Source: Candidatus Omnitrophota bacterium
GTDB lineage: Bacteria > Hinthialibacterota > Hinthialibacteria > Hinthialibacterales > JAKPRU01
DNA: 36,599 nt
Direction: 5' to 3'
Assembly (NCBI GenBank): GCA_029570205.1
Contig: JAKQSI010000015.1
Coordinates: forward strand, 1 to 36,599
This document shows positions 32,202 through 36,599 of the stretch, piece by piece. Position 1 is the first letter of the stretch. Every line of letters starts with the position of its first letter. Below the pieces are notes generated by a model. The model searched no databases. It was not told the DNA's origin and saw nothing but the letters and a program-made list of their open reading frames with translations. The position numbers and the translations under genes were made by a program.

Positions 32202-32243
32202 CTTGCCCCCTTGGGTCTATCCGCCTGAGGGGGCAAGTTTTTT
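32202..32243 (+). terminator. Rho-independent terminator
   Basis: The arms CTTGCCCCCT (32202-32211) and AGGGGGCAAG (32228-32237) form ten perfect pairs around a 16-base loop, followed by six T (32238-32243). It terminates the plus-strand oxidoreductase 23 bases after its stop. The loop and right arm also encode the last residues and TAG stop of the convergent alpha-galactosidase gene. On the minus strand no T-run follows, so it works mainly in one direction. Confidence 0.92.
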
Positions 32244-34334
32244 ATACCGAACCAACAGGCTCGACCTCGGAGGCAGTTTGATCTCGCGGCCCGTCATCAA
32301 CGCCTCCCCGGAGAGATCCTCCGAATTTGCAGGACTGTCGCCCTCGCGGATTTCAACCCGGTAGAGCGCCTTCGGATCGAGAGCCTGAAGACGCAGCATC
32401 CAACCTGTATACGGAGACTCCGTTCGCCGAAAGACCATCGCTATTCCGGCGTCCAGGTCCGGGCGATGAAGCTGCCGGCCACACCACAGTTCCGGCGATG
32501 GGTCCCCGGATGTCAGCGGATAAAAGTCACCGTACCAGTATTTTCGCAGTTCCTTCAATTCCGCCAGATTCGACAAGGCTTCCTTCATTGGAAAGTCCCC
32601 GTTCAGGTAGTCCCATTGACAGATTAATCCGGCGGTCATTGTGCTTCGCATCACGTAGGAATCCGGGGTCCAGGCACAGGCCGTATTGAGAGGGATCAGG
32701 GAACACAGCCCCACGGTGTGGGACTGGGTCCATTCCTCCCGCCCGGGGAAGCAATTCGTGTCGCTGCGCCACAGGGGAACCGAACGCATACAGGTTTCCA
32801 GATCGATCCGTCGCCCGCCGCTGGAGCAGTTGTCGATCCAGAGCATCGGATGGCGCGCGCGCAGCTCGTCCCACGTCTCGTAAAGGCCCTCAACGTAATG
32901 AATCTCCGTGATCCCCTCACGGTCCGGCTCATCATTTCGATGCCAGAACGAAAGCGGGTCCATGTTGAAATCGTTTCGGTAAATGTCGATGCCGTATTCG
33001 GAGATTCGTTGGGACAAAAGATCAGTCAACCACCGTCGCGCATCAGGATCGTTTAACTTGAACAGGCCACCTTCCGCGCCGCCGATAACAAACTCCGGGT
33101 GTTCCCGCGCAATTCGCGACCCGGCGGCAACCCGTTCCGGCTCGAACCAGACCAGAAACTTGAGTCCGGCGGCATGGCAGGCATCGGCGACAGGACGAAG
33201 CCCGTTCGGAAACTCTTTCGGCTTGTGCTCCCAGTTCCCCACTCCGTTCGGGAATCCGCCGATAAACCAGGCGGCATCGAACCAGAGCGTGTCGAATCCC
33301 GCCTGGGCAGCAAACTGAGCGGCCTTGATCTGTCCCGCCTCCGTTGCCCACTCCGGCATGGACCAGCTATATCGGTCAAAACACTGTAACGCAAACGGAA
33401 GAAGGATCGGCTTCCCGTCGATCTTCGGGAAATACTCAAACAGCATCAGGCGTCGAAATCGCTGATGAGCAAGCGTAAGGTCGCCTTCACTTGTCATAAG
33501 CAGGATGCGCGGCGTTCGTACGGACTCGCCGGGTTGTAAGTAGAATCGCGTCCGCTCCATTCCGGCCCGAAGGCGGACTGATCCCGTTGCAGTGCATATT
33601 ACATCGGCTGCCCATTGCCCAGACCAGCCTACAGCGACAATCAGATTCTCTGTTCCAGTCGGATGATCCCCGTATTGAACCTCAAAAAACGGGAACGCCC
33701 CATTCGACGACCTGCCGCCATGCGGTGCAATATGGACACTGTCCCCATTATTCAAACCGGTCGTGAAAAAGGAGAAGCTGCGCTCGTCGAAAACATCCCC
33801 GTAGTTGCGGCGCACCGTGACTGTCTGATTTCCCTTTGTACGCAGAGGCATGTCCAATGCCTGAATATCTTCAAGGATCGGCGAATTCCCCGAGCCGGTA
33901 TTCCGGAACCGAATCACCCAATCCGTCGCCGGATATCGGCGAAAACTGCGCACGGTTGCCTGGACTTGAATCTTTGTATCCGGGTCGGTCCAACTGACCT
34001 CACGGCGAATCCAGTCCGCTTCCTCAACAGTCCGACTTTCGTACGCCCAGGTTCCCATAAGGTCTCGCGACAGTTTGCCGCCATACACAAATGAAAACGG
34101 AAGCGATCCGGCGCCCAACAGGGAATCCATGCGGTTGTCCGGCCACATTTTCTTCCCATCGGCAGTCCCGAAAACCAGATCGGCCCAATCTTGTATCTGA
34201 GCAATTTCTCTCGGACCGGCCATGATCGAGTCCTGCGGCGGAGCAGAAGGAATTTCGTTCATGTCTACACACCATCCCGGTGAACTTGTAATCAACAGTA
34301 CGGCGAACAGGCAGGATAGTTTTTTCAGGTCCAT
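32217..34334 (-). CDS. Secreted alpha-galactosidase-type glycosidase (GH36)
   Basis: A 705-residue enzyme with a signal peptide (MDLKKLSCLFAVLLITSSPGWC; the Cys might be a lipobox-like site, but the context is weak). An N-terminal beta domain covers about 60-320, then the barrel: TLWFDAAWFIGG, LKFLVWFEPERV, DIYRNDFN with nucleophile Asp455, NCSSGGRRID, and RSDTNCF with acid/base Asp525. These are the GH36/GH27 clan D motifs. It would release alpha-linked galactose from oligosaccharides outside the cytoplasm. The ATG at 34334 has GGAG seven bases upstream; the longer frame to 34496 runs through a tRNA fragment. It converges on the oxidoreductase unit and is the last chromosomal gene before the integrated element. 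Confidence 0.9.
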   Translation of the reverse strand: MDLKKLSCLFAVLLITSSPGWCVDMNEIPSAPPQDSIMAGPREIAQIQDWADLVFGTADGKKMWPDNRMDSLLGAGSLPFSFVYGGKLSRDLMGTWAYESRTVEEADWIRREVSWTDPDTKIQVQATVRSFRRYPATDWVIRFRNTGSGNSPILEDIQALDMPLRTKGNQTVTVRRNYGDVFDERSFSFFTTGLNNGDSVHIAPHGGRSSNGAFPFFEVQYGDHPTGTENLIVAVGWSGQWAADVICTATGSVRLRAGMERTRFYLQPGESVRTPRILLMTSEGDLTLAHQRFRRLMLFEYFPKIDGKPILLPFALQCFDRYSWSMPEWATEAGQIKAAQFAAQAGFDTLWFDAAWFIGGFPNGVGNWEHKPKEFPNGLRPVADACHAAGLKFLVWFEPERVAAGSRIAREHPEFVIGGAEGGLFKLNDPDARRWLTDLLSQRISEYGIDIYRNDFNMDPLSFWHRNDEPDREGITEIHYVEGLYETWDELRARHPMLWIDNCSSGGRRIDLETCMRSVPLWRSDTNCFPGREEWTQSHTVGLCSLIPLNTACAWTPDSYVMRSTMTAGLICQWDYLNGDFPMKEALSNLAELKELRKYWYGDFYPLTSGDPSPELWCGRQLHRPDLDAGIAMVFRRTESPYTGWMLRLQALDPKALYRVEIREGDSPANSEDLSGEALMTGREIKLPPRSSLLVRYKKLAPSGG

Positions 34335-34426: not shown

Positions 34427-34469
34427 CTGGGGAGGAAGGAGTCGAACCTTCAAGTGCCGGTTCCAAAGT
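34427..34469 (-). other. tRNA-Gln(TTG) 3' fragment, likely attachment site of the integrated element
   Basis: On the minus strand this segment has the 3' half of a tRNA: anticodon loop CTTTGGA (anticodon TTG, Gln), stem ACCGG, a five-base variable loop, T-arm GAAGG-TTCGACT-CCTTC and acceptor strand CTCCCCA with discriminator G. The 5' half is absent: no TGGGGAG lies upstream, and the bases before the loop do not pair with ACCGG. A lone tRNA 3' end beside an integrase is the standard scar of tRNA-targeted integration. Its orientation places the chromosome to the left, and the element and intact tRNA to the right. The amino-acid identity is moderately certain. Confidence 0.75.
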
Positions 34470-34610
34470 TCCGCAGAATACATAATTCCACAACACTACA
34501 TTTACGAAAACCCTTGCAAATAAAGGGAATTGGCGATATGCTGGTTTTAGTCAATTTGCCTGAATTTGCAGAAAACAGTAGCTAATCAGTAGCTGGATGG
34601 TGAACAGAAA

Positions 34611-35845: not shown

Positions 35846-36055
35846 ATGTCCGTCTCCAACCCAGATCTCACTCTACTGAAGCAACGTGAAGCATCCAAAA
35901 TCATCGGTGTGTCGCCGCGAACGATGGAGTTATGGCGGCGGCGCGGAACCGGTCCACGCTTTGCGCAACTAACGCGGCGATCCATCCGATACGATCCTGC
36001 CGACTTGCGCGACTGGCTTGAGTCGAGCAAACGAAATCCCACTGTCGAGGAATAA
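35846..36055 (+). CDS. AlpA-like helix-turn-helix regulator or excisionase
   Basis: A 69-residue protein of the MerR-like winged helix (HTH_17/AlpA) type: LLKQREASKIIGVSPRTMELWRRRG forms the helix-turn-helix and RRSIRYDPADLRDWLES the wing and last helix. Such proteins regulate integrase genes or act as excisionases in satellites and integrative elements. AGGAGG at 35832-35837 is the ribosome binding site; its AGGAG pairs with CTCCT at 35841-35845, immediately before the ATG. It ends one base before the next gene, so the three genes from here form one operon. Confidence 0.85.
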   Translation: MSVSNPDLTLLKQREASKIIGVSPRTMELWRRRGTGPRFAQLTRRSIRYDPADLRDWLESSKRNPTVEE

Positions 36056-36056
36056 G

Positions 36057-36356
36057 ATGGACGTTCAAATCCTCTCCGAGGAGGACGTCCGTCAAATCGC
36101 GATGGAGGTCTTCCGACAATTACACGAAGCCGATTCCGGTGCGCTCTTGAATGTGGACGGCGCGGCTGAATTCCTGCAATGTTCGCGGCAAACAGTGTGG
36201 GCACTGCGCCGCCGGGGGGACATTCCGGCTGTCGAAATATCTCCGGGATGTTACCGATTCCGACCATCCGATTTGAAAGCATGGATCGCGAATCGTACAG
36301 GCCGGGCAAGGACGCCGCGACAGAAGGCCGCCGCGATCATGGAGGGCGCGGAATGA
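36057..36356 (+). CDS. Second small helix-turn-helix DNA-binding protein
   Basis: A 99-residue protein. The N-terminal about 30 residues are acidic and helical; the MerR-like helix-turn-helix follows (LLNVDGAAEFLQCSRQTVWALRRRG, then YRFRPSDLKAWIAN). It is related in fold to the preceding gene but longer. The start at 36057 follows the previous stop by one base, with a GAGG-type site inside that gene. It overlaps the next gene as ATGA. Function: an element-encoded regulator or recombination directionality factor, not determinable from sequence. Confidence 0.82.
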   Translation: MDVQILSEEDVRQIAMEVFRQLHEADSGALLNVDGAAEFLQCSRQTVWALRRRGDIPAVEISPGCYRFRPSDLKAWIANRTGRARTPRQKAAAIMEGAE

Positions 36357-36599
36357 GCGAACCGGGCGGATTCTGTCGGCTTCCTCACAGCCTCAAGGTG
36401 GCCCCCATCACGAGAATATGCGGGATTCCGGCTGCACTGGTTTTCATCGACCTTTACCGAAGGTCGTTCGGATTTCAGCGGGAAACGTGCGAAGCGTCCA
36501 TAAACGACGTTGCCGACAGCACGGGACTGTCCAGAAACGCGGTTCGCAATGCGTTATCCCGCCTTTTGAAATTCGGTTTCCTTTCCCTCTCCGTTGGAT
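36353..36599 (+). CDS. Helix-turn-helix protein, possibly replication initiator, truncated by the window end
   Basis: Eighty-two codons are visible. After a short lead, the segment IPAALVFIDLYRRS is followed by SINDVADSTGLSRNAVRNAL and RLLKFGFLS, a clear winged helix-turn-helix like that at the N-terminus of plasmid and satellite replication or partition regulators. The ATGA overlap with the preceding gene shows that it belongs to the operon. The C-terminal part lies beyond the window, so a replication role is only suggested. Confidence 0.7.
   Translation, partial: MSEPGGFCRLPHSLKVAPITRICGIPAALVFIDLYRRSFGFQRETCEASINDVADSTGLSRNAVRNALSRLLKFGFLSLSVG

Follow-up and report, generated by a model that had tools for sequence, protein, structure and literature searches.

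A probable integrative element with a small terminase gene at tRNA-Gln(TTG) of an uncultured Omnitrophota bacterium, a candidate phage satellite

The genome of a Candidatus Omnitrophota bacterium (GCA_029570205.1, here G000) very probably, with a likelihood of about 93%, carries an integrative element, 5.8 kb or more in length, that entered the tRNA-Gln(TTG) gene by a tyrosine-recombinase crossover at the anticodon loop. The assembly comprises 131 contigs with a total of 4.39 Mb and is 93% complete. The stretch of DNA that was analysed, referred to as the window, is the whole contig JAKQSI010000015.1 (C37), which ends at position 36,599, and the other end of the element is found on contig C71. 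The original prediction, that a tRNA-Gln 3' half in the window forms the left boundary of an integrative element, was confirmed in its observation and is supported in its interpretation. A genome of the same genus (G002), one of the same order (G005) and a sister genome (G001) were used for comparison. This mode of integration is well known; the element, and the family to which it appears to belong, are new.

The tRNA-Gln fragment, its intact copy and the empty site

Read on the minus strand, the fragment (Table 1) is CTTTGGAACCGGCACTTGAAGGTTCGACTCCTTCCTCCCCAG, 42 bp that begin with the first anticodon-loop base of tRNA-Gln(TTG) and end with its discriminator base. It comprises the anticodon loop CTTTGGA with the anticodon TTG, the 3' anticodon strand ACCGG, the variable bases, the T-arm GAAGG-TTCGACT-CCTTC, the acceptor strand CTCCCCA and the discriminator G. 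The 5' half is absent, as had been noticed, and neither ARAGORN nor Rfam calls a tRNA in the window, as expected for half a gene. All 42 bases are identical to those of an intact tRNA-Gln(TTG) gene (C71:54949-55023), which contains the only other copy of this core in G000. The reversed control pattern of the 42-mer gave no matches, and a chance exact match of 42 bases in a 4.4-Mb genome is excluded. The extent first assigned to the fragment, 34,427 to 34,469, designates a real stretch but is one base too long, since the repeat stops at 34,468, and at base 34,469 the element and the intact tRNA no longer agree.

Table 1. Features at the two ends of the element inserted in tRNA-Gln(TTG)
Feature	Position	Strand	Evidence
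GH36-like alpha-galactosidase gene, host chromosome outside the element	32217..34334	-	PF02065 Melibiase, E 1.2e-25; 93% identical ortholog beside tRNA-Gln in G002
Displaced 3' half of tRNA-Gln(TTG), att core at the integrase end	34427..34468	-	Exact match to C71 tRNA; window-flank homology to the empty site begins at the core's first base
27-bp CAGCTACTGATTAGCTACTGTTTTCTG, paired 8-bp direct repeats 11 bp apart, probable integrase arm-type sites	34569..34595	-	Identical 27 bp at C71 end
Tyrosine recombinase (integrase), 361 aa	34611..35696	+	PF00589, E 8e-20; phrog_1, E 2.7e-51
Small HTH_17 protein, 69 aa, excisionase/AlpA-like	35846..36055	+	PF12728, E 5e-9; phrog_66 excisionase/regulator; 44% identical to sister-element gene
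Second HTH_17 protein, 99 aa, excisionase/regulator-like	36057..36356	+	PF12728, E 1.8e-13; phrog_66, E 9.7e-12
O-like replication initiator gene, 5' part, cut at contig end	36353..36599	+	Phage_rep_O, E 1.3e-4; phrog_270 positions 49-99
Replication gene, probable 3' part	L003:12055-12639 (C71)		phrog_270 positions 142-247

The prediction called for a complete tRNA-Gln(TTG) on the minus strand where the element finishes on the right, with its last 40 or so bases equal to the fragment, and the C71 copy fits this place and the predicted orientation. With C71 turned to match the window, the tRNA is a minus-strand gene on the right, element genes occupy the stretch from the tRNA to the end of the contig, and this end is reached 3.6 kb past the tRNA. 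A search of contig ends revealed no overlap between C37 and C71, or of either with any third contig. The two would join within the replication gene, no single contig covers the whole element, and further genes could sit in the gap.

The uninterrupted site is found in G002, where an 11-kb contig contains an FG-GAP gene, tRNA-Gln and a GH36 gene consecutively. The two protein-coding genes are orthologs of the outer-flank genes on C71 (96% protein identity) and in the window (93%), respectively. At the DNA level the C71 flank is 94.8% identical to G002 over 1547 bp, with homology ending 5 bp past the core, and the window flank is 92.9% identical over 1500 bp, starting at the core's first base. 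Because the homology of the flanks breaks at the core, the insertion lies exactly in the tRNA, and the 42 bp represent the duplicated att core. The same flank identities indicate that C37 and C71 come from one organism, neither being a binning error. Presence of the fragment in a relative lacking the element had been named as evidence against the prediction; in G002 no tRNA-Gln 3' fragment was found, and its one intact copy has both outer flanks adjacent to it.

Gene content, putative arm sites and probable mechanism of integration

The gene next to the fragment was likewise correctly recognised as that of an intact tyrosine integrase (Table 1), in which the R, K, HxxR, H and Y residues are all present on inspection by eye. 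Two genes for HTH_17 proteins and the truncated replication initiator gene follow. On C71 the order from the contig end towards the tRNA is the 3' part of a replication gene, a gene for a PC4-like protein (79 aa), orf92, orf178 and terS, the latter encoding a P27-type small terminase (PF05119, E 1.7e-15; phrog_83, E 3.5e-26) with best phage relatives 25-29% identical. The simplest reading is a single replication gene that extends across a short assembly gap, near a repeat run within the gene, which would give an element of about 6 kb; the assembled parts total 5.8 kb, a lower bound on its length. About 1.2 kb between terS and the tRNA contain no clear gene. Several palindromic repeats, of the types GTGGTAGGACA..TGTCCTACCAC and GTGGCACA..TGTGCCAC, were observed in this stretch (L003:9590-9970).

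Paired direct repeats are expected of the arm-type sites of tyrosine integrases. Each end of the element has a copy of CAGCTACTGATTAGCTACTGTTTTCTG, both copies pointing the same way; the distance to the core is about 84 bp on C71 and 100 bp in the window. This sequence holds AGCTACTG twice with a spacing of 11 bp, and the repeats are probable arm-type sites. In a search for exact 8-bp repeats 10-12 bp apart and no more than 200 bp from the core, such a pair was found in 10 of 12 element-side ends belonging to this and other elements, a set that includes related copies and is not fully independent. The period is always 11, while the sequence varies by element. None of three host-side flanks contains a pair, and the frequency in background 200-bp stretches is 2.3%.

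From the anticodon loop onward attP and attB are homologous, in agreement with the tRNA islands of the anticodon-loop crossover class described with Islander (PMC4383910). Such islands are defined there by an intact tDNA and a fragment in the same orientation, with a 3' fragment lying downstream, a tyrosine integrase gene within, and both on the same replicon 2-200 kb apart. The window element resembles the 3'-fragment type at the anticodon-loop (A) subsite in its intact tRNA and displaced fragment of the same orientation, in the integrase gene inside the element and beside the fragment, and in the anticodon-loop crossover. There is no essential difference, although here the ends are on two contigs, the assembled parts between tRNA and fragment sum to 5.8 kb, and the order across the gap follows from the G002 empty site, which joins the outer flanks. 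According to this scheme, the attP of the element would bring a tRNA 3' half, and integration would restore an intact tRNA at the C71 end and shift the original 3' half to the window end. Excision would run this reaction backwards at the 42-bp core, where the integrase would span core and arm repeats together with an HTH excisionase. The element is presumably still mobile.

Related elements in the same genome and order

Two more small terminase genes are encoded in G000 at the ends of contigs C27 and C28, just behind tRNA-Arg(ACG) and tRNA-Glu(CTC), respectively. The two contigs end in identical sequence, and each overlaps contig C3 by exactly 77 bp, so that C3 represents the collapsed body common to both sister elements. 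It contains genes for an HTH_17 protein and a primase-helicase (phrog_239, E 4.5e-27; AAA_25), a gene without assigned function, a PC4-like reading frame, orf95, orf180 and the start of terS. Contig C122, which carries a second integrase gene, was considered as the missing body and rejected as it has no link to these elements; they are known without their integrase ends. Compared with the window element, protein identity is 82% for orf92, 35% for orf178, 46% for the PC4-like protein and 44% for the HTH protein, and 387 bp of DNA are 82% identical. The block of the PC4-like gene, orf95, orf180 and terS is common to the three G000 elements, at tRNA-Gln, tRNA-Arg(ACG) and tRNA-Glu(CTC), and includes no structural gene. 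This tRNA-side block is thus conserved, while the replication gene and target tRNA differ.

The terS genes of the sister elements (C27, L051:9049-10575; C28, L050:1-1114; body C3, L082) are mosaic. The pair is identical over its initial 120 bases and again over a 63-bp block close to the 3' end, but only about half identical in between.

A related element of 8.8 kb is complete on one contig of G005 (C24, L040:2978-11770), between tRNA-Gln(TTG) and its 3' fragment. It resembles the window element in the tRNA used and the position of the core, in an integrase gene at the same end (29% identical), in a replication gene of phrog_270 and in a repeat pair spaced by 11 bp, and it also carries an excisionase-like gene. 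Unlike the window element, it has genes for a major capsid protein and a tape-measure protein. Neither terS nor any other terminase gene nor a portal gene was recognised in it, and this gene set is odd for either a prophage or a satellite. tRNA-Gln(TTG) is thus the target of at least two distinct elements in the order.

Phage satellite or remnant of a prophage

An integrase, excisionase-like regulators, a replication gene and terS in the absence of structural genes are the classical content of phage satellites. Like PICIs (SaPI-like), the window element combines an integrase, HTH regulators or excisionase, a replication initiator and terS with no structural genes in the assembled parts; it is smaller (about 6 kb as assembled) and has a P27-type terS with orphan neighbours. 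PICMIs, the minimalist satellites of Vibrionaceae, adjoin fis, and PICMI115 is without a terS homolog, while in other satellite families terS is among the genes for the redirection of packaging (PMC10803314). The window element shares with PICMIs the small gene set, the integrase and the lack of capsid-remodelling genes, but differs in its location in tRNA-Gln and in the possession of terS. On the evidence of gene content, it is rather probable that the element is a phage satellite, which would replicate by itself and use its small terminase to enter the capsids of a helper phage.

The main rival to a satellite is a temperate prophage in decay, in which the integrase, replication and small terminase genes were left after the loss of structural genes. 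Small terminases occur in decayed prophages too, the P27-type small terminase is a phage packaging gene, the replication gene is phage O-like, and the related G005 element at the same tRNA carries major capsid and tape-measure genes. However, all genes in the assembled parts read intact, and the same block free of structural genes is found at three tRNAs, which decay would not readily reproduce. No capsid, portal, large terminase or tail gene of a complete temperate prophage was found in the assembled 5.8 kb, which leaves the contig gap unread. The lack of a TerL_ATPase (PF03354) match anywhere in the 93%-complete G000 is mild evidence in the same direction, as the control matched only 3 of 14 known genomes. 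A decayed prophage is rather unlikely.

A cryptic island unrelated to phages, moving as a plasmid-like circle with a terS homolog in another role, is distinctly less probable. The integrase, excisionase-like and replication genes would suffice for a replicating circle, and orf92 and orf178 have no phage-family match; against it, the small terminase is kept, clearly within its family, in all three elements, and no relaxase or conjugation gene was seen in the element. That there was no insertion, and that the 42-bp fragment arose by partial tRNA duplication or chromosomal rearrangement, is scarcely credible, with nothing in its favour beyond the gap between contigs and with the adjacent flanks of the G002 empty site already contradicting it, as do the core-exact breakpoints, the integrase gene beside the fragment and the repeats common to both ends.

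With a phage satellite as the preferred reading, the three G000 elements may tentatively be regarded as an undescribed family of small terS-bearing satellites of an uncultured lineage. Its members would have in common the PC4-like/orf95/orf180/terS block by the tRNA but exchange their integrases, their replication modules (O-like initiator or primase-helicase) and the tRNAs that they target (Gln, Arg, Glu); a genome would hold several of them, and terS would be mosaic. No description of such a family was found in the literature, and titles and abstracts on Omnitrophota together with satellites or prophages held nothing on point. Scans of viral contigs with the integrase, TerS, orf92/95 and orf178/180 revealed no relatives. 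A 42-bp piece of a tRNA gene, read from the sequence alone, was enough to predict both ends of a mobile element correctly. The analysis also exposed a group of small terminase-bearing elements, apparently a family, located at several tRNA genes within one uncultured bacterium. The att and arm sequences are precise enough for searching reads for excised circles.

Further tRNA fragments and integrase genes were observed in these genomes. In two 3' fragments of tRNA-Arg(ACG) in G000 (C20:199278-199299 and C120:177073-177094; L070, L074), the core is bordered by similar sequence to its left and right, with arm-like repeat pairs; this resembles an attP or a tandem junction more than the end of a simple element. 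On C114 of G000, a 466-aa integrase-like ORF (L073:1451-2941) converges directly on tRNA-Arg(TCG) and is accompanied by the motif ACTGGACTTACGTACT, which is also present past the C27 and C28 tRNAs and beside a tRNA fragment at G001:C783. The latter fragment was rejected as the same site because its anticodon loop differs (GACTCTGGATC); it derives from another tRNA, probably Gln(CTG). Nor does G001 provide a second empty site, since a different gene follows its tRNA. The first 11 bases past the tRNA on a G001 contig (C659, L039:641-652; TTCGCTTTTCC) equal the element-side bases past the tRNA on C71, as if the attP had taken up flank from a G001-like host. In the empty-site species, contig C92 of G002 (C92:5500-5667, L043) contains a 56-aa integrase piece with an internal stop, 66% identical to the window integrase and possibly a remnant of a related element.
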